A DNA stretch of 46,732 nucleotides from contig CALVTP010000008.1 in assembly GCA_944362765.1 (NCBI GenBank), positions 1 through 46,732 on the forward strand. Direction: 5' to 3'. The DNA is from an uncultured Clostridia bacterium (GTDB taxonomy: Bacteria; Bacillota; Clostridia; Christensenellales; DTU072). Every line of letters begins with the position of its first letter. Within the stretch, counting starts at the first letter, position 1. The position numbers were made by a program, and so were the translations under genes. The notes beneath the pieces were generated by a model, which was given only the letters and a program-made list of their open reading frames with translations, did not search any database and was not told the origin of the DNA. This document shows positions 8,515 to 24,980 of the stretch, piece by piece.

Positions 8515-8555
8515 TGAAAAAAGGGCGCTGGATGCACCCTTATGTTCGTTTTAGG
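8515..8555 (-). repeat. Right-end fragment of the tRNA-linked repeat family
   Basis: Only the terminator-hairpin end of the repeat unit is present (AAGGGCGC, short loop, G(A/C)CCCTT and then TTATGTTCGTTTTAGG). It is the most distal and most decayed member of the array downstream of the Met-Glu-Val tRNA operon. Confidence 0.65.
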
Positions 8556-8560
8556 AGCCA

Positions 8561-8675
8561 CGTTTAATAGAAGGGTGTAGATAGCGCACTTCTTTTAATG
8601 CCGTACAAGGGAGTGTACAAAGAAGTACATGACCGCCGACCCCAAACAAAAAAGCGCTAGATGCACCTTAGCTTT
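8561..8675 (-). repeat. Degenerate copy of the tRNA-linked repeat
   Basis: It keeps GAAGGGTGTAGATAGCGCAC, the central stem TGTAC-6 bases-GTACA and the GACCGCC box, but the terminator hairpin (AGCGCTAGATGCACC) and terminal inverted repeats have decayed. Confidence 0.7.
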
Positions 8676-8680
8676 ACAGA

Positions 8681-8810
8681 CCAAACCGAACAGAAGGGTT
8701 GCAGATTGCGTTCTTTCGAATGTGAGGACAAGGGAGTTTACCAAAACGTAAATGACCGCAGTCCGAATCATGAAGAAAGGGCGCAAGATGCGCCCTTATG
8801 TTCGGTTTGG
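8681..8810 (-). repeat. Complete 130-bp tRNA-linked repeat abutting tRNA-Val(TAC)
   Basis: It is bounded by a perfect 12-bp inverted repeat, CCAAACCGAACA at the left and TGTTCGGTTTGG at the right. The arms extend through AAGGG/CCCTT after one mismatch. The inner stem is TTTAC-6-GTAAA. Read on the minus strand, its first three bases are the encoded CCA of tRNA-Val, and its first internal hairpin (8777-8797) acts as the tRNA terminator. Confidence 0.85.
8777..8797 (-). terminator. Intrinsic terminator of the Met-Glu-Val tRNA operon, inside the repeat
   Basis: Minus-strand stem AAGGGCGCA / TGCGCCCTT with a 3-base loop, followed by TTCTTC. It lies 10 bases after the tRNA-Val CCA. Confidence 0.7.
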
Positions 8811-8883
8811 TGGAGACAATAGGACTTGAACCTATGACATCTTGCTTGTAAGGCAAGCGCTCTCCCAGCTGAGCTATGCCTCC
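8808..8883 (-). tRNA. tRNA-Val (anticodon TAC)
   Basis: A 76-nt cloverleaf with encoded CCA. The acceptor stem GGAGGCA pairs with TGTCTCC (one G-U pair), the anticodon loop is CTTACAA, and the T-arm holds GTTCAAGTC. It is the third gene of the leftward tRNA operon. Its CCA is also the outer end of the adjoining repeat. Confidence 0.96.
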
Positions 8884-8889
8884 GAAGAG

Positions 8890-8964
8890 TGGTGACCCCG
8901 AGGGGAATCGAACCCCTGTTACCGCCGTGAAAGGGCGATGTCTTGACCGCTTGACCACGGGGCC
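8890..8964 (-). tRNA. tRNA-Glu (anticodon TTC)
   Basis: A 75-nt cloverleaf with encoded CCA. The acceptor GGCCCCG pairs with CGGGGTC, the anticodon loop is CTTTCAC, and the T-arm is AGGGG-TTCGATT-CCCCT. It lies 6 bases from tRNA-Val and 6 from tRNA-Met. Confidence 0.96.
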
Positions 8965-8970
8965 ACGTAT

Positions 8971-9047
8971 TGGTAGCGGCGGTCAGATTCGAACCAACGA
9001 CCTGCCGGGTATGAACCGGCCGCTCTAACCAACTAAGCTACGCCGCC
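8971..9047 (-). tRNA. tRNA-Met (anticodon CAT, elongator type)
   Basis: A 77-nt cloverleaf with encoded CCA. The acceptor GGCGGCG pairs with CGCCGCT and the anticodon loop is TTCATAC. The paired first base and the absence of the three G-C pairs typical of the initiator anticodon stem point to elongator Met. A tRNA-Ile with modified CAT cannot be fully excluded by sequence alone. It is the promoter-proximal gene of the operon. Confidence 0.93.
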
Positions 9048-9083
9048 ACAAGAAATTTCTGTTGCGCTTTTCGGCGCCTATAT

Positions 9084-9112
9084 ATCTTATCAAAGCCCCG
9101 TGGAGATGTCAA
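9084..9112 (-). promoter_or_regulatory. Promoter of the Met-Glu-Val tRNA operon
   Basis: Minus-strand TTGACA (9107-9112), 17-base spacer, TAAGAT (9084-9089), starting about 30 bases before tRNA-Met. This is close to consensus and fits a strong stable-RNA promoter. Confidence 0.85.
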
Positions 9113-9312
9113 CTGTTTTTTCCGACATTGTTTTTAAATTCCGAAAAAGGCAACGGTTTTACAAGCCTTTGCGGTGCGTTTGGATAGTTTAGGCAAGGGC
9201 GAAAGCGGTTATTATTGGGTAGAAAGCTGCAAACACAGCCGATTAACGGATAAGGAAGATACTTTTTCGACGGGCGGTAACGCAGGTATAGGTTCAAAAG
9301 CGGCTGCCGTAA

Positions 9313-9341
9313 TTGACATTTTTTCGTAACACGGGTATAAT
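9313..9341 (+). promoter_or_regulatory. Consensus promoter upstream of the zinc-ribbon protein
   Basis: TTGACA (9313-9318), exactly 17 bases, TATAAT (9336-9341): a perfect consensus promoter. The leader to the ATG at 9449 is about 100 bases. The rest of 9113-9312 shows no gene. Confidence 0.85.
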
Positions 9342-9448
9342 TTAATTGCAGGTTGCGCGAAGAAGCCTGAAGGCGGGCGAGGTGCGGCGGCGTTTCGCCG
9401 TGACGTGACATTGCTTAAATTCCACCTGTAACGAAAAATACGGACGGT

Positions 9449-9967
9449 ATGAACAACATGAATGATACTAACAATGTGAATAATCCGAAAAACATTACCG
9501 AAGAGATGAAAGCAAAGCATAGGCGCAATAAAATTATTCTGAAGATTGTGGCGATTTTGCTGCTTTTGGGCGCACTGGCATTTATCGTAACCGCCATAGT
9601 TTCGTGGGCGACGGAAGGGTTTTTGAAAAACTTCTGGTGCCTTATGGTAGGACTTCCGATGGTAGGCGTCGGGGGGATGTTTGCGATGATGGGTTTCAGA
9701 AAGGAAATCGGAAGCTATATGGTAAACGAGTCGGCGCCTCTCGTCAACCAATACGCAAAAAACGTCGCTCCCGGCATTACCGACATGACGCAAGCCGTAA
9801 AGCAGGGCTGGACGGGAGCGGTTTGCCCCAATTGCGGCTCACCCGTCGGAAGCGATCAGAATTTTTGCAACAAGTGCGGCGCCTCGTTAACGAAACAGTG
9901 CCCCAAATGCGGCAATACGGTATCCCAAGATTCCAATTTCTGCGATAAGTGCGGTACGCAGCTGTAA
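9449..9967 (+). CDS. Membrane protein with two C-terminal zinc ribbons
   Basis: A 172-residue protein. A polar, Asn-rich N-terminus is followed by two membrane helices (about 29-52 and 60-82), a linker, and two treble-clef/zinc-ribbon units with four CxxC pairs: CPNCGSPVG and FCNKCGASL, then CPKCGNTVS and FCDKCGTQL. This is the double-zinc-ribbon plan of many clostridial membrane proteins of unknown role, with the ribbons probably in the cytoplasm. Start choice is uncertain: the ATG at 9449 lacks a clear ribosome site, and an in-frame ATG at 9458 is possible. The gene stands alone behind a consensus promoter. No specific function can be assigned. Confidence 0.85.
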   Translation: MNNMNDTNNVNNPKNITEEMKAKHRRNKIILKIVAILLLLGALAFIVTAIVSWATEGFLKNFWCLMVGLPMVGVGGMFAMMGFRKEIGSYMVNESAPLVNQYAKNVAPGITDMTQAVKQGWTGAVCPNCGSPVGSDQNFCNKCGASLTKQCPKCGNTVSQDSNFCDKCGTQL

Positions 9968-10204
9968 TCCGCCGCGCTTAACAGACGGTGTCAAGCGGCA
10001 TTTAAAAGACGCATTTACTATTTTTAAGGCGGAGAAAAATCCTTTGCTTTTATAATGCGGGCGAGCTGCTTCGTAATCCGGCACGAAGCCCGGTAAAAGC
10101 GCGGAGAGCCGGTCTTTGCGCGGTGGCTGTCGTGCGCTGACTAAGTGACGAACGGTGTTTAATATACCGGCTTAAAAAAGAAAAACCGAAAAGGAGTTCA
10201 GGCT

Positions 10205-10669
10205 ATGCTGAAAACAGGAGACAAAGCCCCCGATTTTACTCTTCCCGACCAATTCGGCGCGGAACGCAGCCTTTCGGAGTTCGCCGAAAGAAAAGTAGTC
10301 CTCTATTTTTATCCGAAGGACAACACTTCCGGCTGCACGACGGAGGCGAAAGAGTTCGCGGCGCTGTATGAACGATTTTCAGAGCTTGGTGCCGTAATTA
10401 TAGGAATCAGCAAGGATTCCGTCAAATCGCATCGGAACTTTGCCGAAAAGTATCGGCTTCCGTTTATTCTTTTATCGGATGAGGAGAAGTCGGTGATAGC
10501 ACTCTATGACGTTTTAAAGGAAAAGAAGATGTACGGAAAGACGGTGACGGGAGTCAGCAGGACGACCTTCGTCATCGACGAAAACGGAGTGATCAAGGAC
10601 ATTTTTTCGAACGTCAAAGCGGCGGGACATGCGGGAGAAGTCTATTGTACGTTGGGAGGTAATAGTTGA
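10205..10669 (+). CDS. bcp: Thiol peroxidase of the Bcp/PrxQ family
   Basis: A thioredoxin-fold peroxiredoxin of 154 residues that reduces hydrogen and organic peroxides in the cytoplasm. It shows the family start GDKAPDFTLPDQ, the active-site stretch YFYPKDNTSGCTTEAKEF with the peroxidatic Cys near residue 48, and the GISKDS motif. Two details are unusual. The usual Pro-Gly-Cys is Ser-Gly-Cys, and the resolving Cys normally five residues on (GCTxEAC) is Lys here. It is therefore a 1-Cys form needing an outside thiol partner. AAGGAG lies eight bases before the ATG. The last residues are shorter than usual. It precedes the TPR gene by 86 bases and may share transcription with it. Confidence 0.9.
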   Translation: MLKTGDKAPDFTLPDQFGAERSLSEFAERKVVLYFYPKDNTSGCTTEAKEFAALYERFSELGAVIIGISKDSVKSHRNFAEKYRLPFILLSDEEKSVIALYDVLKEKKMYGKTVTGVSRTTFVIDENGVIKDIFSNVKAAGHAGEVYCTLGGNS

Positions 10670-10755
10670 CCCGCTCAGTCGCCGGAGAGCGGGACGCGTT
10701 TCGGATTGTCGCCTGCAGGGCGGCAGCAAAGACGCACAGACTATAAAGGACTGTT

Positions 10756-11487
10756 ATGGACATTGATTTTATTTTGCAGGAATACGACGACTTTGTCGGA
10801 ATGCGCGACTACGAACGCGGCGGAGAGTTTTTGGAGCTGGCAGCCGAAGCCGCCGGGCAAGAAGGTGACGCGCATGCCGAACTCATCGTCCTGAATGAGC
10901 TTATCGGTCACTACCGTAAAAACGACGACAAGGAAAAATGCCTCGTCGCGATAGACAAAACGCTTAAAGCAATCGAAGAATACGGCTCCGGGTGCGAACT
11001 TTGCGTCGGAACGGCTTATATTAATATAGGTACCGGATATACAAGATTTGGGAACCCAAAACTTGCTTTGCAATTTTTTGAGAAGGCGGAAGAGATTTAT
11101 TCCGTTCTTTTGAATCCGCGCGATCCCAAGTGGGGCGGGCTCCTGAACAACGCCGCAGCGGCTTATGAAGCCGCAGGCGACTATGCGGAGGCAAAAGAGC
11201 GTTTCGAACGCGCTTTCAGATTGATGAGTGCGCTGGATAAAAACGAGGACGCCGCGGTGTCACTGGTCAACCTTGCGGAGCTTGCCGAGCTGACCGGCAG
11301 CAGCGATATGATAAAAAGCTATCTCGACCGCGCCTATTATTTGTTGGATATTGTGCGTGAAAGGGGCGGTTATTATGCGTTTGTCTGCGAAAAGTGTGCT
11401 CCGGCATTTTTGCATTTCGGTGACGAAAAGAGGGGAGAGAAGCTGCTTCAAAGGGCAGCTGCCATATATGAAGAGAACTCTAAATAG
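10756..11487 (+). CDS. TPR-repeat protein paired with a DUF4037 gene
   Basis: A 243-residue all-helical protein with TPR units. The clearest are AYINIGTGYTRFGNPKLALQFFEKAEEIY (about 100-128) and LLNNAAAAYEAAGDYAEAKERFERAFRLM (about 137-165), with further degenerate units on both sides. There is no signal peptide or membrane helix, so it is a cytoplasmic scaffold. It ends six bases before the DUF4037 gene. This TPR plus DUF4037 pairing is a common clostridial arrangement, from general knowledge, which suggests the two products work together. The partner and process are unknown. Confidence 0.85.
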   Translation: MDIDFILQEYDDFVGMRDYERGGEFLELAAEAAGQEGDAHAELIVLNELIGHYRKNDDKEKCLVAIDKTLKAIEEYGSGCELCVGTAYINIGTGYTRFGNPKLALQFFEKAEEIYSVLLNPRDPKWGGLLNNAAAAYEAAGDYAEAKERFERAFRLMSALDKNEDAAVSLVNLAELAELTGSSDMIKSYLDRAYYLLDIVRERGGYYAFVCEKCAPAFLHFGDEKRGEKLLQRAAAIYEENSK

Positions 11488-11493
11488 CGTCAA

Positions 11494-12414
11494 ATGAAGG
11501 GATTGGAACTTAGCAGGGCATATTTTGAGGAGTACGGCAGGGAACTGCTCGCGCGCTTTGACCCGACCGGCGAAAAGATATCGGCGGGGCTTCTGGGTTA
11601 CGGCTCCGAGTGCCTGGGCTACGATGACGAACTTTCTGCCGACCATGACTTCGAACCACGTTTCTACCTATGGATCGACGAGAGGACGGAGCGCGAAATC
11701 GGCTTTAAATTGATGCGCGCATATAACGCGCTTCCGCATGAATTTATGGGCTACGGGAGGACGGCGCACAGCCTTTACTGTGCCGGTCGCGGCGGAGTGG
11801 TCACAGTCAGGGATTTTTTTGAAACCTTCACGGGTCTGGGACGGCTGCCGGAATCCGACGGAGAGTGGCTGCGCATTCCGGATTACTCCCTGAATGCGGC
11901 GGTGAACGGGCAAATTTTTGTCGACAACTGCAAGGAATTCAGGCTTTTCAGGGATACGCTGAAAGAAGGCATGCCGATAGACGTCAGACGCCAGAAACTT
12001 GCGGCGCGGCTTGCGGTCATGGCGCAATCGGGACAATACAACTACCCCAGGATTCTGCAGCGCGGCGATTTCGGAGCAGCAGCCTTAGCGGCGGCGGAGT
12101 TTGCCGCCAAAGGGCTCGAAGTACTCTTTATTCTCAACAAAGCGTATGCGCCGTACTATAAATGGCTGTTCCGGGCGGCGAGAGAACTACCGGTTTTAGG
12201 CTCTTTGACCGAAGACTTCGAGTACATCGTCAATGCGCCACAATCGGAGGAAAAATCGACGCGCATCGAGAGCGTTTCCGCGGCAATCATCGATGAATTG
12301 AAACGGCAGGGCTATTCCAAAGCGGAAGACAGCTACCTGGAAGCGCACGCCGTCTCCGTCAGACACGCCATCCGCTCCAAGGATCTTATCGGATTGCACT
12401 TGATGGAAGGCTGA
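11494..12414 (+). CDS. DUF4037 protein, nucleotidyltransferase-like
   Basis: A 306-residue protein of the DUF4037 family. The N-terminal part has the pol-beta-type nucleotidyltransferase signature LLGYGSECLGYDDELSADHDF (residues about 33-53), with a G-S followed by D-x-D, the metal ligands of that fold. The rest is helical and carries the family's conserved NYPRIL and AYAPYYKW stretches. It sits six bases behind the TPR gene. The ATG at 11494 has no strong ribosome site, consistent with coupling to the upstream gene. Substrate unknown; a nucleotide-transfer role on a small molecule or RNA is only what the fold suggests. No obvious terminator follows. Confidence 0.85.
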   Translation: MKGLELSRAYFEEYGRELLARFDPTGEKISAGLLGYGSECLGYDDELSADHDFEPRFYLWIDERTEREIGFKLMRAYNALPHEFMGYGRTAHSLYCAGRGGVVTVRDFFETFTGLGRLPESDGEWLRIPDYSLNAAVNGQIFVDNCKEFRLFRDTLKEGMPIDVRRQKLAARLAVMAQSGQYNYPRILQRGDFGAAALAAAEFAAKGLEVLFILNKAYAPYYKWLFRAARELPVLGSLTEDFEYIVNAPQSEEKSTRIESVSAAIIDELKRQGYSKAEDSYLEAHAVSVRHAIRSKDLIGLHLMEG

Positions 12415-12646
12415 CGCCTATACCTGTGAAGTCACCGCAATGAACCGAAATCCGCATATGCCGATTCATCCGCCCTGTCTTTCAAAAAAACGCTTCCGAT
12501 TTTACGGCGAACCGATTCCGGCGGGAAAGGCGACAACCTTGATAGGTAAAATGGTCTTCGGAGCGCGGAGCGGTATTTAAAAAAGCCGATCGAGAAAGCT
12601 TCTTATAAAGCTCGGAGTACAATTTATTAAACCTGATAAAAAATGC

Positions 12647-12675
12647 TTGCAAAGCGGGAAGCAATTTGATATTAT
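12647..12675 (+). promoter_or_regulatory. Promoter of tRNA-Val(GAC)
   Basis: TTGCAA (12647-12652), 17 bases, TATTAT (12670-12675), with TATAAT also present three bases further on. It lies immediately upstream of the tRNA at 12687. The rest of 12415-12646 holds nothing recognisable. Confidence 0.75.
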
Positions 12676-12686
12676 AATAGCACCAC

Positions 12687-12762
12687 GGACGATTAACTCA
12701 GCTGGTAGAGTGTCTTCTTGACGTGGAGAAAGTCAGGGGTTCGAGTCCCTTATCGTCCACCA
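12687..12762 (+). tRNA. tRNA-Val (anticodon GAC)
   Basis: A 76-nt cloverleaf with encoded CCA. The acceptor GGACGAT pairs with ATCGTCC. The anticodon arm is TCTTC-TTGACGT-GGAGA, giving GAC. The T-arm is AGGGG-TTCGAGT-CCCTT. It is a single-gene transcript with its own terminator. Confidence 0.94.
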
Positions 12763-12766
12763 CACG

Positions 12767-12817
12767 AAACCTAAAACGAACCACTTTGAGTGCAAGTCGT
12801 TTTAGGTTTTTTCTTTT
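12767..12817 (+). terminator. Terminator of tRNA-Val(GAC)
   Basis: A 13-bp perfect stem, AAACCTAAAACGA (12767-12779) with TCGTTTTAGGTTT (12797-12809), followed by TTTCTTTTT. It is unrelated to the repeat-borne terminators of the other tRNAs. Confidence 0.88.
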
Positions 12818-13075
12818 TGCCGTTGTGTTTTGGGGCGTGATATTGAGCCATTATGGAGCCGTTGGTGGCGTGGTGAGCGGTGTGTCCGTGCTCTCTTACG
12901 ATTATGTGAAACGGCGGTTTATGCCGCGAAAGCCGCTTGACATGAGGAAGGCGTGCGGTAGGCTGTTCGCCTATGGCAAACAAAAAGCCCCTTGGGGCGT
13001 TTGGTCTTGGCTCTTTGCCTTGATACCGTACGCCGCAGAGGCTCGTGTCAAGCGGAGCGTGGAATAAATAGCCGT
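12818..13075. other. Segment without a supported gene, possible integration scar
   Basis: An open frame runs through this segment on the plus strand, but it begins inside the tRNA, has no ribosome site and shows no family. The stretch may be what is left of an element once integrated at tRNA-Val. No direct repeat of the tRNA 3' end was found further on in this window. Confidence 0.3.
12982..12998 (-). terminator. Possible terminator of the ATP-grasp operon
   Basis: Read on the minus strand: GCCCC, then GGGGC, then TTTTTG. The hairpin is short with a tight loop, but the T-run lies on the operon's side. It is about 270 bases beyond the last ATP-grasp stop. Confidence 0.4.
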
Positions 13076-13087
13076 TAATTTCTATCT

Positions 13088-13228
13088 TTACAGGTAAATT
13101 TCCACCTCAAATTCGTACTTCGCGAGGTTCGCTCTGAACGGCACTTTGAATGAGAGTTTAACGGTTTTGGAGCATAAAGAAAAGCCCCGACGCCCTGAAA
13201 ACGGAACTGATAAACCGTTAAATACGGA
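13088..13228 (-). pseudogene. Possible 3' remnant of an unidentified gene
   Basis: A minus-strand frame between the ATP-grasp operon end and its possible terminator ends with a protein-like run KTVKLSFKVPFRANLAKYEF and EVEIYL before TAA at 13088-13090. It has no start codon or ribosome site of its own and no recognised family. It fits the C-terminal scrap of a gene left by an integration or deletion near tRNA-Val, but could be chance. Confidence 0.25.
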
Positions 13229-13268
13229 TCAAGCTTTTCGATATTATTTTTATAATACGGACGCGGAT

Positions 13269-14078
13269 TCAACCGTTGAGTCTTTTTATAATGTTATCGA
13301 TAAACACACTTGCCGGATCCAAATTTGTATATTTATACAGTATTCTTGTCCCGACGACGTCCTCAATTTCGTTTAATATCCAACGGTTGTCGTCATAAAT
13401 AAAATCTATGCCGACAAAAGTAAAATTTAATTCATGATACAGCAACCGGACGGTTTCTTTCATAGAAGTGGCGGGATCGAACAATTCGGCGTTGCCGCCT
13501 AAGGAAAAGTTGCTTCTGAAATCGTTCGGATTTATTCGCAAGGCAGCTGCCAATATTTTATTTTCCAGGCAATATACCCTGACGTCTTTTCCGACGTCGG
13601 AACACATTTTCTGAATCAGGCAGTTGTCGTTGAATTGACGGAGACGGTATAAGTATTCTTGTTCGTCGTGTATTACGAACACTTCTTTTCCGCCATGGCC
13701 GTTCAAAGATTTTAATATAAACGGGAAGTTTGATCGTACATGCTCCGTGAGTTCGTTTTGCGGCAAACAAGTCGGCATAACCGGAATGCCGAGTTTTTTT
13801 GCCAATTCGTATGTAAACCATTTGTTGTTTGCGTAATAAGAAGTTTTGTAATTATTGAAAACGGGAATCTTATGTTGTTCAAAGAATTTATTGATTGCGG
13901 GAGCCATCACTCTTACTATTGCGAAATCCGGTAAATCCCTGCAATAAAAGGAGCCTGTTTTTTCAACAATTTTTAACTGTAATCCGACACCAAGAAGCGC
14001 GGCTTGCCGTATCAGTTCGTCGGCAAACCAACGATTGCGTTGAAATTCTTCTTTACCGTAGATCAGATAACCCTTCAT
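13269..14078 (-). CDS. RimK-like ATP-grasp ligase, second of a pair, with altered metal motif
   Basis: An ATP-grasp amide-bond-forming ligase of 269 residues. It has a pre-ATP-grasp domain (1-95), then the ATP-binding FPFILKSLNGHGGKEV, IQKMCSDVGKDVRVY, and the C-terminal FVGIDFIYDDNRWILNEIED. Enzymes of this fold join an acyl phosphate to an amine using ATP and Mg. The motif that is normally ExN reads NEIEDVVGTR, so the usual Asn metal ligand is Glu. The ATG at 14078 overlaps the stop of the sister gene (ATGA); a longer reading from 14135 would run into that gene without a ribosome site. Both paralogs share a distinctive DFRSN(I/F)S(N/L)GG stretch. The substrate is unknown. The gene is AT-rich relative to the core genes. 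Confidence 0.85.
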   Translation of the reverse strand: MKGYLIYGKEEFQRNRWFADELIRQAALLGVGLQLKIVEKTGSFYCRDLPDFAIVRVMAPAINKFFEQHKIPVFNNYKTSYYANNKWFTYELAKKLGIPVMPTCLPQNELTEHVRSNFPFILKSLNGHGGKEVFVIHDEQEYLYRLRQFNDNCLIQKMCSDVGKDVRVYCLENKILAAALRINPNDFRSNFSLGGNAELFDPATSMKETVRLLYHELNFTFVGIDFIYDDNRWILNEIEDVVGTRILYKYTNLDPASVFIDNIIKRLNG

Positions 14079-14941: not shown

Positions 14942-14952
14942 ATATATTCTCC

Positions 14953-18164: not shown

Positions 18165-18284
18165 TACTGCCTCCGGCTATGGTATTAAGCCTTTCATTCC
18201 TAAATTTTATACCAATTCTAAAAAAATGTCTAATACATGTCGGCTATGAGTTATCATAAAAATTTGATATCGCTACATAAAAAA

Positions 18285-18345
18285 TTTGAAAACCGCCATA
18301 TTGTTCGAGACCCCCGGATACACAGCAGCACTATCAACATAAAAA
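18285..18345. repeat. Degenerate A-rich repeat (second repeat class)
   Basis: AACCGCCATATTGTTCGAGA, then a CAGCAG(C/A)A motif and TATCAACATAAAAA. It resembles copies at 24112-24250, which likewise sit just distal to a tRNA-linked array. The remainder of 18165-18284 contains only the DUF3737 promoter region. Confidence 0.5.
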
Positions 18346-18373
18346 CCAACACCGACAAATTCACCAAGACCCC

Positions 18374-18474
18374 CCAAAATGAATAGAAGGGTTGCAGATA
18401 GCGCACTTCTTTCGATTTGCCGTCGAGGGAGTTTACACCGCCGTAAACAATGTAGACAAACGTTGGCTAAGGAT
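18374..18474 (-). repeat. tRNA-linked repeat copy, terminator end missing
   Basis: It starts CCAAAATGAATAGAAGGGTT and has the internal stem TTTAC-ACCGCC-GTAAA. The right end is replaced by AATGTAGACAAACGTTGGCT and AAGGAT, with no terminator hairpin or closing inverted repeat. Confidence 0.75.
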
Positions 18475-18585
18475 CCAAATTGATCAAAAGGGTGTAGAGA
18501 GCGCACTTTCAAATGACCATGCAAGGGAGTGTACAATGAAGTACATGACCGCCACAAACAATGCAGACAAATGTTGGCGAGGGAA
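18475..18585 (-). repeat. tRNA-linked repeat copy, terminator end missing
   Basis: It starts CCAAATTGATCAAAAGGG and has the internal stem TGTAC-AATGAA-GTACA. The right end is of the CAAATGTTGGCGAGGGAA type. Downstream neighbour of the complete copy at 18586. Confidence 0.75.
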
Positions 18586-18715
18586 CCAAAACGAAGAGAA
18601 GGGTTGCAGATAGCGCACTTCTTTCGATTTGCCGTCGAGGGAGTTTACAAAGAAGTAAATGACCGAAGACGGCAAACGAAAAAGGGCGCTAGATGCGCCC
18701 TTATATTCGTTTTGG
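18586..18715 (-). repeat. Complete 130-bp tRNA-linked repeat abutting tRNA-Pro
   Basis: Terminal inverted repeats CCAAAACGAAGA (left) and TATTCGTTTTGG (right), matching 11 of 12. The inner stem is TTTAC-AAAGAA-GTAAA. The last three bases, TGG, are the encoded CCA of tRNA-Pro. The terminator hairpin of that tRNA lies inside at 18677-18704. Confidence 0.85.
18677..18704 (-). terminator. Terminator of tRNA-Pro, inside the repeat
   Basis: Minus-strand stem AAGGGCGC-ATCTA-GCGCCCTT followed by TTTCG, beginning 9 bases after the tRNA CCA. Confidence 0.82.
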
Positions 18716-18789
18716 TCGAGGTGACGGGATTTGAACCCATGGCCTCTTGGTCCCGAACCAAGCGCGCTACCAAACTGCGCTACACCTCG
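18713..18789 (-). tRNA. tRNA-Pro (anticodon CGG)
   Basis: A 77-nt cloverleaf with encoded CCA. The acceptor CGAGGTG pairs with CACCTCG. The anticodon arm is CTTGG-TTCGGGA-CCAAG, giving CGG. The T-arm holds GGTTCAAATCC. It is a single-gene transcript. Confidence 0.95.
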
Positions 18790-18797
18790 CCTCAACT

Positions 18798-18826: not shown

Positions 18827-19081
18827 CATTTTTGACTATGTTTCCCTTTCCTTTTTGCCGCTTTTTTGTAAGACGTGTTCTTTTAGCTTATCCGAAGTGT
18901 TTATTCGTAGTTTTCTTTGATTTTGTCGGTTGGGGCGGTATTTCGGAGGATTTATTTAGGATTGTGAAGATTTTCGGGACGCCCTCGATTTGTATCGATT
19001 CGGGAATTCCTATGCACGGAAGCGTTTAAAAAGCTGAGTAACGGGGATAATTTTTTCAAAACCACTTTCTCGGAGGTAAAA

Positions 19082-20341
19082 ATGACCAAAATTTTAAACG
19101 ACCCTTTTGAAGTCAGAACAAAGCCGCTTAAAGAGTACTTCATGAATTGGAAGCAGCTTGCCCCGAAACCGTATGACAAGCTGAAAACGGCTCCGTACAC
19201 CAAAGTGCGGCTGATATTGATGAACGGCACAGAGTTCGAATCCAATTGGTTTTTGCATCAATTTGCGCGCCATACTGATGATATGGAGCTGAAACGTCAA
19301 CTTGCGGTAGTGCGCTCGCAGGAACAGCAACAGCAAAAACGCTTGTCGCATTTAAAGCCGGTCGACGAAAATATTCTGGAGACCACAATTGCTTACGAAC
19401 AGCTCGCCGTTGACCTTACCGCAATATTGTCGATGCGGGAGAGTAACGAAACCAACAAACAGGCGTTGAACTTTGCGCTGCTGGAGGACTTCGACCACCT
19501 TTACCGCTTTTCAAACCTGTTGAAGACAGATTACGATATCGACGCAGATATGCTGGTGGGGCGTTTCACCGAGATAACTCCCGCACGTCCCACAATAGCC
19601 GAGCACCGCTTTGCGGAAGACAACGTCAAACCCGCAATGTGTCTGAATGCTTCCGACCCGTTTTCCGCGCTGGTCGCAAATATCATCACCGCCGCCGAAC
19701 AGCAGACAATGAACTACTATATGAACGTCGGCGCATTCTATCCGAACGAGGAGGGAAGAAAGCTCTATGCCGAGATAGCCATGGTCGAAGAGGAGCACGT
19801 CACACAATACGAAAGTCTGTTAGATCCCAATCTCAGCTGGCTGGAAAATTGGGTCTTGCATGAGTACACGGAGGCGTATCTGTATTATTCGATGGCTTTG
19901 GACGAGAGCGATCCCGCCATCAAAAGCATATACGAAGAGCACTTCGAAATGGAAGCGGCGCATCTTAAAGTCGCCATCGAATGTTTGCAAAAATATGAAA
20001 ATAAGGCTCCCGAAAAGCTTTTGAAGGTTACCCGTTTCCCGGAACCGTTGAAATTCGGCTCGAACAAAGAATTTATTCGCCGCGTGTTGGAAAGGACATC
20101 GGAGCTGACCTCTGAAAAGGACGGTTATATCCATGTAGACCACCTCGACGGTAACTCCGATTTTGCCTCATATCAGCGTGTGATAAATTCCGATCCCGAG
20201 TCGGTGCCGTCGCATGCGGTCATCAAACGCACGATAAAAAAATTCGGCGAAGACTACCGCTACGAAGACGCTCCCAATCCCGTTGCCGCACTCCGTCCGC
20301 GCGACCGCGATAACATTACTTTGGGAAGGGTGGTAAAGTGA
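19082..20341 (+). CDS. Ferritin-like domain protein, function unknown
   Basis: A 419-residue protein. Residues about 195-310 show a ferritin-like/rubrerythrin-like four-helix pattern: EQQTMNYYMNVGAFY, then LYAEIAMVEEEHVTQYESLL with the E-E-H typical of di-iron helices, then EYTEAYLYYSMALDE and IYEEHFEMEAAHLKVAIECL, again with Glu and His spaced as metal ligands. The flanking parts (1-190 and 320-419) are helical and not recognised. No signal peptide or CxxC rubredoxin module is present. GGAGG lies ahead of the ATG, and a strong terminator follows. A role in oxidative or iron stress fits the fold but is inference. Confidence 0.8.
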   Translation: MTKILNDPFEVRTKPLKEYFMNWKQLAPKPYDKLKTAPYTKVRLILMNGTEFESNWFLHQFARHTDDMELKRQLAVVRSQEQQQQKRLSHLKPVDENILETTIAYEQLAVDLTAILSMRESNETNKQALNFALLEDFDHLYRFSNLLKTDYDIDADMLVGRFTEITPARPTIAEHRFAEDNVKPAMCLNASDPFSALVANIITAAEQQTMNYYMNVGAFYPNEEGRKLYAEIAMVEEEHVTQYESLLDPNLSWLENWVLHEYTEAYLYYSMALDESDPAIKSIYEEHFEMEAAHLKVAIECLQKYENKAPEKLLKVTRFPEPLKFGSNKEFIRRVLERTSELTSEKDGYIHVDHLDGNSDFASYQRVINSDPESVPSHAVIKRTIKKFGEDYRYEDAPNPVAALRPRDRDNITLGRVVK

Positions 20342-20372
20342 CGGCGTTTTAAAACCGTTGCCGTTTTTTCCG

Positions 20373-20406
20373 GGCGGAGAGAATCTATATCTCCGCCTCT
20401 TTTTTT
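20373..20406 (+). terminator. Terminator of the ferritin-like gene
   Basis: An 8-bp stem, GGCGGAGA with TCTCCGCC, a 9-base loop, then TCTTTTTTT. Confidence 0.92.
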
Positions 20407-20456
20407 GAAACGGAAATCTCATCGGATGGAAATGCCGTATTTTTCGCGGCTATATA

Positions 20457-20485
20457 TTGACAAAAAAGAATCTCTGTTCTATTAT
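20457..20485 (+). promoter_or_regulatory. Promoter of the GPH symporter / sialate lyase operon
   Basis: TTGACA (20457-20462), 17 bases, TATTAT (20480-20485). Confidence 0.82.
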
Positions 20486-20489
20486 AAGA

Positions 20490-20535
20490 GTAATTAATTG
20501 AAAATCGTTAAAAGTAATTGATTAAAAATTGTTAT
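20490..20535 (+). promoter_or_regulatory. Tandem 24-bp direct repeats, candidate operator
   Basis: Two adjacent imperfect copies: AGTAATTAATTGAAAATCGT followed by TAAA, and AGTAATTGATTAAAAATTGT followed by TATG. They begin at about the expected transcription start, between promoter and ribosome site. The position suits a repressor or leader element controlling the sugar operon. Confidence 0.45.
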
Positions 20536-20551
20536 GTGAGAGGAGCGGCGT

Positions 20552-22237
20552 ATGAGCAACACGGCTACGCTGTCTTTTAAGAAGAAGACGGCACTTGACG
20601 ACCTGTTGGACAGGAAATACCTCGGCAAAAAGGATTACATATGGTTTTCGCTGACGCAATTTGCGTGCAGCGCCATAACGGGCTTGGCGCAGGGGTATTT
20701 ATTGTTTTTCTACACCTCCATCATGAACATACCGCTGACTTACGTGGGCACGATGTTCCTGATAGCCAAGATCTGGGACGGCGTAAACGACCCGATAATG
20801 GGCGTAATAGTCGACAAGACCCGCTCCAAGATGGGAAAGATGCGCCCGTATCTGCTGTGGGCGAGTATTCCGTACGCGATATGTACGATAGTCATGTTTA
20901 TAAACTTCCGCGGCATGAATATAACCGGGAAGATAATATTCATGTATGCTTCGTACCTGTTGTTCTCGACGGTGGGAACGGCTGTCGAAGTGCCTCTCCA
21001 GGGGCTCCCCGCCGTTGTCTCCCCGAACATCGACGAGAGAACGAAAATAATTTCCATAAGCCGTATTCTGGGCTCGATAGGTGAGCAATCGGCATTGGTG
21101 CTGATTTCCCTGGGACTCATCGTCACCAACGACAATTACGAGGCTACCTACACCGGAACGGCTGTCATTATAGGCGTTATTGCGCCGATTTTCATGGTCA
21201 TAAGTGCCTTGGTTCTGAAGGAGCGGATAGAACCCACGAACGAGATCCCGAAGTGGTCGGAGGGTTTCAAATATTTATTTAAAAACAAGCCCTTTATGAT
21301 TTTAATCTGCGCCAACCTTCTGACCTTCTTCAGAAACCTGGTGTCGGCTGCCATTATGTATGTCGTCTGCTACATTTACGGCAACGGCTCTTTGCAGATA
21401 GCTTTCGCGCTTCCGGGGGCGATAGCGTCGATGATAGGAATGCTCCTCGCGCCCAAGCTGAAACGCCACTTCAACGCCAAGCAGCTGTTTATCTTAGCGA
21501 CAATCTGGCATTCGGTGTGCCTGGTGGGCGTCTTCTTTGTCGGAATGACGGTGCCGTGGTACGTAATAGCGGTATTGATGTTCTTTACGATGCTGCCGGT
21601 AGGGCTTCTGAACGTCGTTCCTCACCTGATGGCGGCGGATACGATAGACTATTGGGAGCACAAGACGGGACAGCGCCAGGAAGGAATCACATACTCGCTG
21701 ATGGGTTTGAGAAGCAAAGTTTCCAGCGGTTTGAAGGACTATTTTCTCACCTTCCTTTTGGGATACTTCCTGTTCAGCCAGCCGCTGGGCTTCGTCGAAG
21801 GACACGAACCGGTGCAATCCTCTTATACGCAATGGGGTTTGTTTGCGATCTACACGATAATCCCCGCCGTTCTGAACCTCGTGAGCATCGTGCCGATGAT
21901 ATTCTATAACCTTACCGGCGACAGAATAAGAAAGATCCAGGAGGAGCTTGCGGTGCGCCACGAAGAGCAGCGTATGGCGGAGGCGGCATTTGCCTATTCG
22001 GGAGGCGACGTCGAGGAGTTCGGCGTGCTTTCGAAACCCGGCTTTTCAGCAGGCGCCGTCAACTTTTCTCAGATAAAGGACGTCATTGCGAAAAGGAGAA
22101 ACTCGCAGGCGGTGGCGGAGGTTCTCCGCGCCGAAAAAGCCGCCGAGGAACAAGCGTTGGACGCCATGACGGAAGAATCGAAGAAAGCCGTAACGGCTGA
22201 AAATGCCGGTGAAAAAATCGAAGAGGAGGGGAAGTAA
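20552..22237 (+). CDS. GPH-family (MFS) sugar:cation symporter
   Basis: A 561-residue, 12-helix inner-membrane symporter of the glycoside-pentoside-hexuronide family. Diagnostic stretches are KIWDGVNDPIMGVIVDKTRSK (about 70-90), KMGKMRPYLLWASIPYA just after, and YWEHKTGQRQEGITYSLMGL in the second half. The C-terminal 90 residues form a long hydrophilic, acidic, helical tail (AAEEQALDAMTEESKKAVTA), longer than in most members. GGAG lies ahead of the ATG. It is the first gene of an operon with a lipoprotein 1 base further on and a sialate-lyase-like enzyme. The context suggests a sialic acid or related acidic sugar as cargo (inference). The broken symporter at the window's left edge is a paralog. 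Confidence 0.92.
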   Translation: MSNTATLSFKKKTALDDLLDRKYLGKKDYIWFSLTQFACSAITGLAQGYLLFFYTSIMNIPLTYVGTMFLIAKIWDGVNDPIMGVIVDKTRSKMGKMRPYLLWASIPYAICTIVMFINFRGMNITGKIIFMYASYLLFSTVGTAVEVPLQGLPAVVSPNIDERTKIISISRILGSIGEQSALVLISLGLIVTNDNYEATYTGTAVIIGVIAPIFMVISALVLKERIEPTNEIPKWSEGFKYLFKNKPFMILICANLLTFFRNLVSAAIMYVVCYIYGNGSLQIAFALPGAIASMIGMLLAPKLKRHFNAKQLFILATIWHSVCLVGVFFVGMTVPWYVIAVLMFFTMLPVGLLNVVPHLMAADTIDYWEHKTGQRQEGITYSLMGLRSKVSSGLKDYFLTFLLGYFLFSQPLGFVEGHEPVQSSYTQWGLFAIYTIIPAVLNLVSIVPMIFYNLTGDRIRKIQEELAVRHEEQRMAEAAFAYSGGDVEEFGVLSKPGFSAGAVNFSQIKDVIAKRRNSQAVAEVLRAEKAAEEQALDAMTEESKKAVTAENAGEKIEEEGK

Positions 22238-22238
22238 A

Positions 22239-23086
22239 ATGATGAAAGCTTTGAAAATTGCGGTCGTTTTAGTCATCGTTTTAACGGCGGTATTTGCTTT
22301 GACGGCATGCAACATCCCCGATGAAGAGGTCGAAACGGAACTAAGAGAGGCTATACAGAAGACGAAAGAAAACGGCTTCGATATAGAATTTACCTATAAT
22401 CACGAAGTATTGGAACTTTACTCCGGAAAGCAGCTCGAAAAGTACCTGAAAGAGGACGACGGCGACCCCAACCGCACCAATTGGAACGACGAGGAATCGA
22501 CGGAGTGGGTGAATACCGCTTATAAGTATTCCGTCAAAACCGAGGACGGAAGTATCACGGGGGAGGTTAAAATTACCGCTCCCGCGGAAAAAAACGAGAT
22601 GGGAGAACCTATAGGGAGCGATTCGGTCGAAACAAAGACTTACGCCGAGGACGGCTTCGCCGGCGGCTTTTTGGATTACTGGTTTGTGCGTTCCTTAGGC
22701 GAGGAATCCACCCACCGAGTCACTTATCAGGGCGTAGTGAGGTTCGGAAGGGACATCATACGGGTCAACATAGAGTCGATTTTGATGAAGAGCGGGGAAT
22801 ATGCTACGTACGCTTCGGACGGTTCGTGGAAGCTTAGCGACGGCACGGTCGTCAAGGCAGCCAATGAGGAAGACTACAACTGGACGGCGGCGGGAGGTAT
22901 CGAAATGGTGGAAATCGACAGGATCGATTTTACGATAAAGGACGGCGCCGTCAGCGAAATTGAGCTTTATAACGAGCACATCGCCTATCTTCCCGTAGAT
23001 CAAAGAAATTACCTCGAAGGAGGCAAGATCTACACCGTCGAGAAAGCCGTTATAAAGGAAAAGGAAGAGGCTACAATCATTTTCTG
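22239..23086 (+). CDS. Lipoprotein in the sialate-lyase operon
   Basis: About 282 residues starting MMKALKIAVVLVIVLTAVFA, with a type II signal peptide and lipobox LTAC (lipid-attached Cys at 25). The mature part is beta-rich and acidic, with no recognised domain. The ATG at 22239 follows a strong GGAGGGG site and starts one base after the symporter stop. It is therefore exported and anchored on the outer face of the membrane. It is not a typical extracytoplasmic solute-binding protein. The shared operon suggests a surface role in capture or sensing, which is unproven. The stop codon is at 23084-23086. Confidence 0.82.
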
Positions 23087-23116
23087 ACATCATTGATTTA
23101 AGGAGATATAGAAAAA

Positions 23117-23989
23117 ATGAAAGATTTTTCGGGCATTTATGCAGCACTGCTGACGGCATTCAACGAGGATGGCTCCATCAATTTCGAAGCCACCGGAAAA
23201 CTTGCCGAGAGAAACATCGAAAAGGGCTTGGACGGCATGTACGTTGCGGGCTCCAGCGGCGAAGCGATGATGATGAGCGAAGAGGAAAGAGTGGCGCTTT
23301 TAAAATACGTCGCCGGCGTCAACAAAGGAAGAGTCACCCTCATAGCTCACGTCGGTTCCACTTCTACGGACGCTTCCGTACGTATGGCAAAAGAGGCGGA
23401 AAAGCTGGGCTACGACGCCGTCAGCGCCGTAGCGCCTTATTACTATTCCTTCTCCGGCGAAGCCATCCGCGGCTATTACAAGGACATCCTTGCCGCCACA
23501 GAACTTCCGATGCTTATTTATAATTTCCCCGCTTCGGGCGGCTTCGACGGCATGTTGAACCTCGTCTCGGAAATGATCGACGACCCCAAATTGATGGGAG
23601 TCAAACATACTTCCGTCAATCTGTTCGAATTGGAGCGCTTCAAACATTTAAAGCGCCCGCTGACTGTTTTTAACGGCTTCGACGAGATGTTGATAGGGGG
23701 TCTGGCGATGGGCGCCGACGGCGGTATAGGTTCTACTTATAACCTTTTGCAGGACGATATCCTGGCTATTTACAAGGCGTTCAAGGCGGGCGATCTGAAG
23801 GGTGCGATGGAAGTCCAGACCAAGGTCAACCGCATTATCGAAGCCATGATTCCTTACGGTGTGTTCGCAATGGAAAAAGCCATTCTGACGGAGCTCGGCA
23901 TACCTATGGGCAATTGCCGCAAACCTTTCCTGCCCCTCTCCGACGAAGGAAAGAAAGCAGCAAAGGAAATAGCTTCGAAATTGAACTGA
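23117..23989 (+). CDS. nanA: N-acetylneuraminate lyase family aldolase (DapA/NanA superfamily)
   Basis: A class I TIM-barrel aldolase of 290 residues. It has GSSGEAMMMSEEER (about 46-59), the Tyr in LIYNFPASGG (Tyr135) and the Schiff-base Lys in LMGVKHTS (Lys163). The stretch NGFDEMLIGGLAMGADGGIGSTYN matches sialate lyases rather than dihydrodipicolinate synthases. The expected reaction is cleavage of N-acetylneuraminate to N-acetylmannosamine and pyruvate in the cytoplasm. AAGGAG lies ahead of the ATG. It is the last gene of the symporter-lipoprotein operon and is followed by a terminator. No other nan genes (kinase, epimerase) are nearby, so a related keto-acid sugar substrate remains possible. 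Confidence 0.88.
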   Translation: MKDFSGIYAALLTAFNEDGSINFEATGKLAERNIEKGLDGMYVAGSSGEAMMMSEEERVALLKYVAGVNKGRVTLIAHVGSTSTDASVRMAKEAEKLGYDAVSAVAPYYYSFSGEAIRGYYKDILAATELPMLIYNFPASGGFDGMLNLVSEMIDDPKLMGVKHTSVNLFELERFKHLKRPLTVFNGFDEMLIGGLAMGADGGIGSTYNLLQDDILAIYKAFKAGDLKGAMEVQTKVNRIIEAMIPYGVFAMEKAILTELGIPMGNCRKPFLPLSDEGKKAAKEIASKLN

Positions 23990-24018
23990 TTCTCAAAGAT
24001 ATAACCGACCTCAACCTC

Positions 24019-24045
24019 CGAGCCGCCTCAAAGGCGGCTCTTTTC
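24019..24045 (+). terminator. Terminator of the nanA operon
   Basis: Stem AGCCGCC (24021-24027) with GGCGGCT (24033-24039), a 5-base loop, then CTTTTC. Confidence 0.9.
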
Positions 24046-24111
24046 AATCCTGCAAACCGCCGAATTCCCCACACCCCCAAAATAAGTATAAGGATTGCAG
24101 AAATATAAAAA

Positions 24112-24250
24112 ATGACGACACCGCCATATTATCCGAATCAAGAATGAATATAAAAACAACAAGCACAAAAAACAATAACAAACCGCCAAATTCCCCGAGA
24201 TCCCAAAACGAACAGCAGAATTATCAACATAAAAAACATAAAAAACCGCC
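24112..24250. repeat. Degenerate A-rich repeats (second repeat class)
   Basis: Repeated ACCGCC(A/T)(A/T)ATT blocks appear at about 24118, 24182 and 24245. They are followed by CCCAAAACGAACAGCAGAAT and TATCAACATAAAAA-type sequence, with a spacing of about 62 bp. Related sequence occurs at 18285. It lies distal to the tRNA-Leu repeat array and shows no coding potential. Confidence 0.55.
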
Positions 24251-24265
24251 AAATTATCCAAGATC

Positions 24266-24395
24266 CCAAAATGAATAGAAGGGTTGCAGATAGCGTTTTT
24301 CTTTCGATTTGGGGGTAAGGGAGTTTACTAAAACGTAAATGACCGCCACCCACAAACGAAAAAAAGCGCTAGATGCGCCCTTATATTCATTTTGG
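24266..24395 (-). repeat. Complete 130-bp tRNA-linked repeat, not directly touching a tRNA
   Basis: Perfect 12-bp terminal inverted repeats, CCAAAATGAATA and TATTCATTTTGG. The inner stem is TTTAC-TAAAAC-GTAAA. The hairpin AAAGCGC/GCGCCCTT is present. It is the distal complete unit of the tRNA-Leu array, about 590 bp from the tRNA. Confidence 0.85.
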
Positions 24396-24420
24396 AGATG
24401 CGCCCTTATATTCGTTTTGG
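24396..24420 (-). repeat. Right-end fragment of a tRNA-linked repeat
   Basis: A 25-bp remnant, AGATGCGCCCTTATATTCGT then TTTGG, identical to the right end of the tRNA-Pro copy. Confidence 0.7.
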
Positions 24421-24423
24421 GAG

Positions 24424-24535
24424 CCAAATTGATCAAAAGGGTGTAGAGAGCGTACTTTCAAATGCCCATGCAAGGGAGTGTACACCGACGTACATGACCG
24501 CCACAAAACAATGTATACAAACGTTGGCTAATGAT
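24424..24535 (-). repeat. tRNA-linked repeat copy, terminator end missing
   Basis: It starts CCAAATTGATCAAAAGGG and has the stem TGTAC-ACCGAC-GTACA. The right end is ATACAAACGTTGGCTAATGAT-like, with no closing inverted repeat. Confidence 0.75.
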
Positions 24536-24636
24536 CCAAAACGAAGAGAAGGGTGTGATTAGTGCGCTTTCAAGTGCGAGGACAAGGGATACTTAAAAGC
24601 CAAAAAAACGAGTAGACCAGTGTTGGATAGGGGGAA
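24536..24636 (-). repeat. Divergent tRNA-linked repeat copy
   Basis: It starts CCAAAACGAAGAGAAGGGTG. The middle stem has been lost (GATACTTAAAAGCC) and the right end reads CCAGTGTTGGATAGGGGGAA. It is identical over 101 bp to the copy at 24751. Confidence 0.7.
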
Positions 24637-24750
24637 CCAAATTGATCAAAAGGGTGCAGAGAGCGCTTTTCTTTCGATTTGGGGGTAAGGGAGTGTACAC
24701 CGACGTACATGACCGCCACAAAACAATGTATACAAACGTTGGCTAATGAT
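24637..24750 (-). repeat. tRNA-linked repeat copy, terminator end missing
   Basis: It starts CCAAATTGATCAAAAGGGTG and has the stem TGTAC-ACCGAC-GTACA. The tail is identical to that of the copy at 24424. Confidence 0.75.
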
Positions 24751-24851
24751 CCAAAACGAAGAGAAGGGTGTGATTAGTGCGCTTTCAAGTGCGAGGACAA
24801 GGGATACTTAAAAGCCAAAAAAACGAGTAGACCAGTGTTGGATAGGGGGAA
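24751..24851 (-). repeat. Divergent tRNA-linked repeat copy, duplicate of 24536-24636
   Basis: Identical to 24536-24636 at an offset of 215 bp, so it belongs to a recent tandem duplication covering two repeat units. Confidence 0.75.
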
Positions 24852-24980
24852 CCAAATTGATCAAAAGGGTGCAGAGAGCGCTTTTCTTTCGATTTGGGGG
24901 TAAGGGAGTGTACACCGACGTACATGACCGCCACCCACAAACGAAAAAAAGCGCTATATGCGCCCTTTTCATCAATTTGG
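24852..24980 (-). repeat. Complete tRNA-linked repeat abutting tRNA-Leu
   Basis: Terminal inverted repeats CCAAATTGATCA and TCATCAATTTGG, matching 11 of 12. The inner stem is TGTAC-ACCGAC-GTACA. The first 80-odd bases equal the copy 215 bp upstream. It ends directly at the CCA of tRNA-Leu without overlapping it. Confidence 0.85.
24944..24967 (-). terminator. Terminator of tRNA-Leu, inside the repeat
   Basis: Minus-strand AAGGGCGC-ATATA-GCGCTTTTTTT. The stem closes with G-U pairs and a run of seven T follows. Confidence 0.75.

Follow-up and report, generated by a model that had tools for sequence, protein, structure and literature searches.

ERIC repeats are in wide use for typing. As set out by Delihas in 2007 (PMC2229807), ERIC elements are 127 bp long, have TA termini with a target duplication, can carry open reading frames (ORFs), and affect mRNA stability in Yersinia; movement by transposases is presented there as a hypothesis with no experimental support. 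A survey of 40 genomes, two Clostridium species among them, found ERIC in E. coli, Y. pestis, and V. cholerae (PMC2267715). In the accessible parts of the open-access literature searched, no report of ERIC relatives elsewhere was found, and structured-RNA catalogues such as PMC8040213 may contain members. Here, a family of noncoding repeats is described from a window of 46,732 nucleotides (the whole stretch analyzed, positions 1 to 46,732 of contig CALVTP010000008.1, GenBank assembly GCA_944362765.1) from an uncultured Clostridia bacterium (Christensenellales; DTU072). These repeats, termed type A and arrayed at the 3' ends of tRNA genes, are probably a clostridial branch of an ERIC-like, nonautonomous family of mobile hairpins of ~125 to 130 bp, similar to miniature inverted-repeat transposable elements (MITEs), that has settled at gene 3' ends.

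Other described repeats share part of this design. The YPAL/RU-2 elements are likewise long and palindromic, with targets that span or adjoin dyad symmetries, and differ in their length of 168 bp, internal inverted repeats, and target duplications of 3 to 26 bp. The NEMIS/Correia elements of Neisseria are MITEs of ~107 to 155 bp with terminal inverted repeats and long-hairpin transcripts that are proposed RNase III substrates, and the available portion of the source does not mention placement at tRNA CCA ends for them; both groups were compared by description only (PMC2229807). The GTAG-type REP sequences resemble a sister subfamily described below (type B) in that their termini often provide the stop codon (TAG) of a neighboring ORF, but they are 20 to 40 bp long, have RAYT transposases, and, as described, form no 130-bp hairpins (PMC3733652).

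A first-pass annotation, made from the letters of the window alone, had proposed three loci with tandem units of ~130 bp, and complete units were recovered at all four of the positions it gave, with partial tandem units alongside (Table 1). The third array also contains an exact tandem duplication of 215 bp (24472-24901). Each complete unit (129 to 130 bp) folds end to end as a single long hairpin. Folds of the four complete units ranged from -64.3 to -71.7 kcal/mol for plus-strand RNA (z, -10.5 to -12.4) and from -51.7 to -64.3 kcal/mol for minus-strand RNA (z, -7.6 to -9.6), and for each of the eight unit strands none of 200 shuffles was as stable as the real fold. The base of the type A hairpin consists of outer arms of ~10 to 12 bp beginning CCAAA, above which lie arms with AAGGGTTGCAGA or a similar sequence opposite GCGCCCTT, a middle stem, and a tip of the form GG-GAG-TTTAC-loop-GTAAA-TGA-CC. 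Above the non-Watson-Crick GAG/TGA step of the tip, the pairs of the inner stem change together (TTTAC/GTAAA and TGTAC/GTACA, with CATAG/CTATG in copies outside the window).

In an alignment of 19 type A units from several genomes (A1), 95.7% of 776 cells paired and both sides had changed in 14 of 41 pairs, values that were each reached by 0 of 500 shuffles, and structures shifted by 1 to 3 columns paired at just 34 to 48%. Further pair types (28) were reached by 452 of 500 shuffles, so this measure shows nothing, and kinship among sequences can beat such shuffles even without structure. The annotation had singled out 12-bp terminal arms that always match within a copy and a second covarying stem inside. 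Covariation was found in both, within one long hairpin rather than two stems, and just 10 of 12 outer positions pair in two of the four complete units (CCAAAACGAAGA/TATTCGTTTTGG and CCAAATTGATCA/TCATCAATTTGG); its views that the folded hairpin is the conserved object and that no protein is encoded were both borne out. No Rfam 15 family other than tRNA was found in the window at the gathering cut-off, and relaxed searches of three plus seven loci likewise gave no family besides tRNA at the gathering score.

The three window arrays terminate at tRNA-Val(tac), tRNA-Pro(cgg), and tRNA-Leu(gag), all on the minus strand (ARAGORN). At the Val and Pro arrays, the final TGG of the element is the tRNA's own CCA; at tRNA-Leu, the element directly adjoins the CCA. 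In the same genome, 56 matches to one unit (blastn, E ≤ 1) and at least 46 matches to a covariance model, R1 (150 of 818 candidates scored), were found; a palindrome can match once on each strand, and both were included in the counting. Among 15 arrays in this genome, which has 36 tRNA matches, 8 adjoin an encoded tRNA CCA, all in the same orientation (Val(tac), Pro(cgg), Leu(gag), Lys(ctt), Tyr, Glu(ctc), Met, and Ala(cgc)), and 2 lie at tRNA 3' fragments (tRNA-Ser and tRNA-Thr); a solitary right arm next to a fragment of tRNA-Thr (L020) was not counted as an array. Among 27 loci of other genomes, of which several overlap, the pattern fit 17 distinct right ends, and 11 of these adjoin a tRNA or transfer-messenger RNA (tmRNA) gene. 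The gene-side arm was the same, CCCTT-bearing arm (mostly GCGCCCTT) in all 19 tRNA- or tmRNA-adjoining cases. The attachment to tRNA 3' ends proposed for the window thus extends beyond it, as do the expected further copies: of 13 genomes of the genus, 11 gave R1 matches, with scores of >80 bits in 7.

Occupancy of individual tRNA genes differed among relatives. In other species of the genus, the unit was absent at the CCA of tRNA-Val(tac) (0/4), tRNA-Pro(cgg) (0/2), and tRNA-Ala(cgc) (0/7), and at the tRNA-Pro(cgg) locus of one genome (G001) the right arm of the unit lies farther downstream, past another insert. Two families of the order, represented by the window and locus L029, differ in the arm subtype of their copies at tRNA-Leu(gag). 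The exact tip pattern was present in 19 of 58 genomes of wider kin, in which the reversed pattern had no match.

The sister subfamily, type B, lies at the ends of protein-coding genes. R1 matched 14 and 17 elements of 124 to 128 nt in genomes G004 and G007, and ARAGORN found no tRNA on 40 type B stretches of 0.7 to 1.1 kb. An ORF of at least 60 codons ended 34 to 80 nt from the core at 35 of 42 type B right ends, compared with 467 of 5,760 random windows drawn from the same loci and nine others. These right ends came from G004, G007, and the few passing loci of G011 and G002, with 22 array-internal units and one short flank left out. On the left side, an ORF ended toward the element in 1 of 31 cases. 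The stop codon lay within the palindromic arm, at the arm tip, in 22 of the 42 (TAA, 14; TAG, 8; TGA, 0); the lack of TGA is weak evidence by itself, because TGA accounted for just 5 of the long-ORF stops in 20 loci of type B genomes (TAA, 29; TAG, 7).

Several of these gene ends could be followed between genomes. At an EF-G-like gene (named by eye), an element directly follows the stop codon in 4 of 13 genomes (G007, G011, G002, and G004), as judged by eye on the 187 nt past the stop. The arms of these copies (TAAGACGCGATA/TATCGCGTCTTA, TAAGACCACG/CGTGGTCTTA, and TAAGACTCGTTA/TAACGAGTCTTA) are self-complementary in three genomes, and those of the G004 copy are partly mismatched. At a second conserved gene, an element is present in 3 of 11 genomes with a visible 3' end, the G002 copy being degenerate on the far arm, and a third gene pair, with 94% protein identity, has GCGCTA/TAGCGC versus GCGTTA/TAACGC arms. 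Arms at orthologous genes can thus differ yet match, and therefore complementarity can outlive sequence. At L045 (1450-1575, in G017), the outer palindrome covers the last 12 nt of the adjacent coding sequence, so that the far side of the element bears the gene end in inverted copy. Insertion of an element into the loop of an older terminator, whose stem would now form the outer arms, was also considered for loci whose arms are unique.

Complementarity of this kind could be mutational, with template switching in replication perfecting long palindromes without selection on a folded RNA, an explanation that is less likely than not. It accords with the block-wise arm changes between orthologous copies at the EF-G-like gene (gacgcgata, gaccacg, and gactcgtta), with the reach of the L045 palindrome 12 nt into a coding end, and with inverted tRNA 3'-end copies beside terminators in the clade. 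Such correction would erase the GAG/TGA step, yet the step was kept in 19 of 19 A1 units while inner stems changed (most of these units were found via the tip or via similarity to a tip-bearing unit), and copies on three contigs of the same genome (C36, C59, and C62) have a wholly swapped inner stem (CATAG/CTATG) with GGGAG..TGACC retained. One copy, at the EF-G-like gene of G002, has nevertheless lost the step. The occurrence of the step in 28 of 28 elements of a second alignment (A2, below) was not counted, because those loci were selected by the tip. The first-pass interpretation, only partly upheld overall, needs amending where it took compensatory change to imply selection: retention of the step in A1 agrees with it, whereas template switching can also keep palindromes complementary and the G002 copy lost the step.

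The pattern of occupancy bears on a further explanation, judged unlikely, in which the repeat is a nonmobile structured RNA or bidirectional terminator that was inherited along with the tRNA genes and reached other tRNA loci through gene conversion alone. On the tRNA strand, the gene-side arm can be read as an intrinsic terminator, and a terminator scan returned sites in all three window arrays (directly beside the tRNA at Pro only); equal-scoring units and array pieces are common to tRNA loci of one genome, including copies on three further contigs (C6, C9, and C59) that score the same as the unit at 24266-24395 (R1, 131.5 bits); and one stop codon is occupied in four genomes. All of these would suit such inheritance. 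They are opposed by the tRNA-Val, -Pro, and -Ala genes of relatives, which were examined and had no unit at the CCA, by the different arm subtypes at tRNA-Leu(gag) in two families, and by a related gammaproteobacterial hairpin with 8-bp target duplications.

The tip, GG-GAG-(5 bp)-loop-(5 bp)-TGA-CC, recurs across many phyla within hairpins of ~125 nt that bear CAAGGC and CAACGCAG. An exact-pattern scan of genome contigs returned at least 116 stretches, against ~37 estimated by chance for the whole collection. Eighty stretches were taken as loci, with 83 matches, and the two free positions expected to pair were complementary in every match (83/83). Record titles assigned the matches to Bacteroidales, Gammaproteobacteria, Alphaproteobacteria, Desulfobacterales, Mucispirillum, Seleniivibrio, Sulfurovum, Lentisphaerae, Chlorobiota, a Staphylococcus, and many Clostridia, of which single matches in some may be chance. 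A looser pattern, applied to 18 genomes picked as already holding a match, gave 100 (Desulfobacterales), 48 (Clostridia), 47, 31, 25, and fewer matches, and the reversed pattern gave none in each; the exact core was not found in viral contigs. In alignment A2 (28 aligned of 36 extracted elements, 8 having been dropped), CAAGGC and CAACGCAG stood at a constant distance from the tip, and both sides had changed in 12 of 20 predicted pairs (no shuffle control).

Taken alone, the tip might be read as a tyrosine-recombinase attachment site (Xer or Tn916-like), which is very improbable. Such sites consist of two 11-bp arms around a 6-bp spacer, a geometry that AGGGAGTTTAC-N6-GTAAATGACCG fits, and locus L042 has a large serine recombinase gene next to a unit. 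However, spacer lengths of 4 to 8 occur, and variation in the inner stem takes the form of complementary pairs (TTTAC, TGTAC, CGTAC, and CATAC), which fits a hairpin better; a recombinase site would also not need the outer hairpin or CAAGGC/CAACGCAG. The recombinase ORF at L042 (26-1462; Pfam Resolvase, Recombinase, and Zn_ribbon_recom) continues into a type A unit, where it stops at an internal TAA; this arrangement could reflect integration at the unit.

Signs of movement were found in relatives bearing the tip. A gammaproteobacterium (G058) contained at least 40 full-length matches with 98 to 100% identity (40 of 324 candidates scored); these copies are 152 bp long with GTAAC termini, and exact 8-bp direct repeats flank 9 of the 12 copies for which both flanks were readable. 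Two Bacteroidales families have other conserved termini (TAGTGC in G070 and GGTGTGTC in G069). The tip is thus common and the ends are different. A scan of the flanks of 139 elements for direct target duplications, based on a crude outer-arm finder, returned one 7-mer and is no evidence of absence, because true 8-bp repeats of G058 (L157 and L212) were missed.

IS66-derived MITEs have 8-bp target duplications and GTAA termini. An 8-bp duplication was seen in G058 (9/12); the termini of type A are CCA/TGG, and the duplication finder applied to the 139 elements was unreliable. Derivation from IS66 was set aside: PF03050 had no match in G000, G004, or G007 and one partial match in G058, and a pattern search of the 3.3-kb locus of this partial IS66 gene gave no matching termini.

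The link to ERIC was examined with a model (R2) of 28 multiphylum elements that included neither ERIC nor type A, applied to six ERIC loci (two from E. coli and one each from Pantoea, Serratia, Kosakonia, and Klebsiella) and a 3-kb K-12 control. R2 recognized four of the six ERIC loci at full length, over all 114 positions (E, 1.3e-10 to 5.3e-6), with 42.6 bits for Pantoea (E, 1.3e-10), 30.3 bits for Klebsiella, and 26.6 bits for each of the two E. coli loci, and did not match the control. Much of this score lies outside the tip, because the ERIC core alone gives ~12 bits (11.6 for Serratia). On 34 further loci (33 unused in building the model), R2 gave 44 matches at E ≤ 0.1, 25 of them >50 bits, although these loci were core-selected and a bare GGGAGT..TGACC core scores ~32 bits. 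R1 in turn matched L149, L151, and L206 at E values of 8e-10 to 5e-8. The tip and the CAAGGC/CAACGCAG blocks agree with the reverse strand of the 127-nt RU-1/ERIC consensus given in PMC2759123.

Convergence, in which unrelated MITEs gained similar tips, is an improbable account of this resemblance. The family termini do differ (TA in ERIC, as described in PMC2229807; GTAAC with an 8-bp duplication in G058; TAGTGC in G070; GGTGTGTC in G069; CCA/TGG in type A). However, the R2 matches to four ERIC loci cover all 114 positions and draw much of their score from beyond the core, and CAAGGC and CAACGCAG have the same placement in the ERIC consensus (PMC2759123) and in the elements of other phyla (left and right arm, respectively). 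ERIC/IRU/RU-1 and the clostridial repeats are alike in size (~127 bp, compared with 129 to 130 bp for window units and 124 to 128 bp for type B), in forming single long imperfect hairpins that are dispersed in many copies, in their intergenic placement within presumably transcribed regions, and in having the GAG-5bp-loop-5bp-TGA tip as the conserved central inverted repeat. The first-pass annotation recognized no named class, but ERIC/IRU probably fits; the mobile hairpin element that it listed among its readings is supported.

Several observations weigh against assignment of the window repeats to an ERIC-like mobile family. R2 found only the core of the Serratia ERIC (11.6 bits; E, 0.11) and missed that of Kosakonia, and R1 found only the core of ERIC (12 bits; E, 0.63). 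The four complete window units scored 35.0 to 41.7 bits with R2, of which the bare core already supplies ~32 bits and the share beyond the tip 0 to 10 bits. The tie of type A to ERIC therefore rests mainly on the tip, size, and shape, on type B as an intermediate, and on those 0 to 10 bits. ERIC termini are TA with a target duplication, compared with CCA..TGG in type A; in type B, a stop codon starting with TA is outermost in 22 of 42 cases, but the analysis recovered no duplicated empty site. The clostridial elements yielded no transposase, excision event, or target duplication (the finder described above being unreliable on the last point), and the G002 copy at the EF-G-like gene has lost the GAG/TGA of its tip. 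Five of the 15 arrays in the window's genome are at no recognizable tRNA (one of them runs off its contig), the terminator scan did not flag the units directly beside tRNA-Val and tRNA-Leu, and the excess of terminator-like sites in the window region was modest (35, versus 24.3 in shuffles; standard deviation, 4.8). ERIC also differs in its hosts (Enterobacterales and Vibrio, as opposed to Clostridia and other phyla here), and type A differs from it in its position at tRNA 3' ends in one orientation and in its diverged inner stem, arms, and flanking motifs.

Each unit nonetheless forms one long hairpin, copies are numerous, presence and absence differ between genomes, orientation is fixed, and placement at gene 3' ends is exact; the tip structure is common to type A, ERIC, and repeats of other phyla. 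Collectively, the family is real, multicopy, structured, and mobile looking, similar to ERIC in its working and probably part of the same superfamily. The window subfamily was filed as a variant rather than ERIC proper because its termini are not TA and its host lies outside those of ERIC. In the proposed explanation, the element would move through a transposase acting in trans and would survive where its outer arm restores the gene end, either CCA or, as TA plus A or G, a stop codon. A settled element could act as the terminator and 3' hairpin of the gene. Its arms would stay complementary through selection on the hairpin, perhaps aided by hairpin-templated repair, and arrays would expand and contract via recombination and slippage among copies.

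Table 1. Repeat units, terminator-like sites, and adjoining tRNA genes of the three window arrays
Feature	Coordinates	Strand	Details
Partial unit, right (tRNA-side) arm alone	8518..8552	+	blastn, 91% to unit positions 94-128 of 130
Terminator-like site	8541-8521	-	Within partial unit 8518..8552
Degenerate unit	8561..8682	+	Core 8609-8634; R1 59.0 bits, E 2.0e-11; R2 match spans 8567-8675, 32.6 bits
Terminator-like site	8669-8651	-	Within degenerate unit 8561..8682
Complete 130-bp hairpin unit	8681..8810	+	Arms CCAAACCGAACA / TGTTCGGTTTGG; core GGGAG..TGACC 8732-8757; last TGG = tRNA-Val CCA; R1 152.5 bits
tRNA-Val(tac), capped gene	8808..8883	-	ARAGORN, RF00005
Partial unit, left arm and core start	18374..18447	+	Repeat search
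Partial unit with CCAAATTGATCA arm	18471..18558	+	Core 18525-18550; repeat search, core listing
Complete hairpin unit	18586..18715	+	Core 18639-18664; last TGG = tRNA-Pro CCA; R1 134 bits
Terminator-like hairpin directly adjoining tRNA-Pro	18682..18702	-	tRNA strand; AAGGGCGCATCTAGCGCCCTT then TTTCGTTTGC; plus strand matches too
tRNA-Pro(cgg), capped gene	18713..18789	-	ARAGORN, Rfam
Complete hairpin unit	24266..24395	+	CCAAAATGAATA..TATTCATTTTGG; R1 131.5 bits
Terminator-like site	24382-24362	-	Within unit 24266..24395
Right-arm scrap	24396..24420	+	AGATGCGCCCTTATATTCGTTTTGG
Partial tandem units, sharing in 215-bp duplication	24424..24851	+	Cores 24474-24499, 24689-24714; repeat search
Complete 129-bp hairpin unit	24852..24980	+	CCAAATTGATCA..TCATCAATTTGG; core 24904-24929; adjoins tRNA-Leu; R1 116.5 bits
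tRNA-Leu(gag), capped gene	24981..25063	-	ARAGORN, Rfam

Other repeats were also observed. Degenerate repeats of ~60 bp (ACACCGCCAAATTATCCGAGACCCCAAAATGAATAG...) lie at the far side of arrays in the window (18275-18348 and 24165-24281) and at L010, L011, and L012, and have sequence in common with the left arm of the unit. In a tRNA-Thr(ggt) region (L016 450-990), next to a type A unit, a short palindromic insert is surrounded by repeated fragments of the tRNA T arm and 3' end. A second small noncoding element (GGTGCGCAAGTTTGC-loop-GCAAACCTGATGAG and variants), for which no Rfam family was found at the cut-off, occurs downstream of tRNA terminators in the genus (L009 4080-4500, L014 1840-2030, L017 270-930, L121 200-330, L122 100-260, L124 120-230, and L128 200-330). 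An inverted copy of the same tRNA's 3' end precedes it in several loci, and a sense copy of the tRNA 3' end lies on its far side in L122 and L009, as in L016 with a related insert. A third repeat of the window's genome (L019 and L021 to L026, near coordinate 1000) shares the GGGAG..TGACC tip but folds differently, its arms being GGGGGTG/CACCCCC, and R2 matches its core only. Elsewhere in the window, type I restriction-modification genes (956-8361; HsdM, HsdS, and HsdR by Pfam) lie beside a tRNA-Val/Glu/Met cluster, with a 360-amino-acid ORF between hsdS and hsdR that had no Pfam match.

A broader interpretation, held tentatively and at somewhat less than even chances, is that ERIC represents the enterobacterial tip of a superfamily of mobile hairpins that spans the bacteria and in which the conserved part is the GAG/UGA hairpin tip rather than the termini. 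One hairpin would have been combined with several kinds of terminal module and of target chemistry (TA, 8-bp duplication, tRNA CCA, and stop codons), and several lineages would have fixed it at tRNA, tmRNA, and protein-gene 3' ends as a terminator. If the family does span phyla with one conserved tip, a comparative search could be made for its mover and for whichever protein or RNase recognizes the tip. The clostridial members are small, probably mobile elements placed exactly on tRNA CCA ends and stop codons, able to supply the last bases of a gene. They may also supply its transcription end, in which case a parasite would have been rendered harmless or useful by its landing site.

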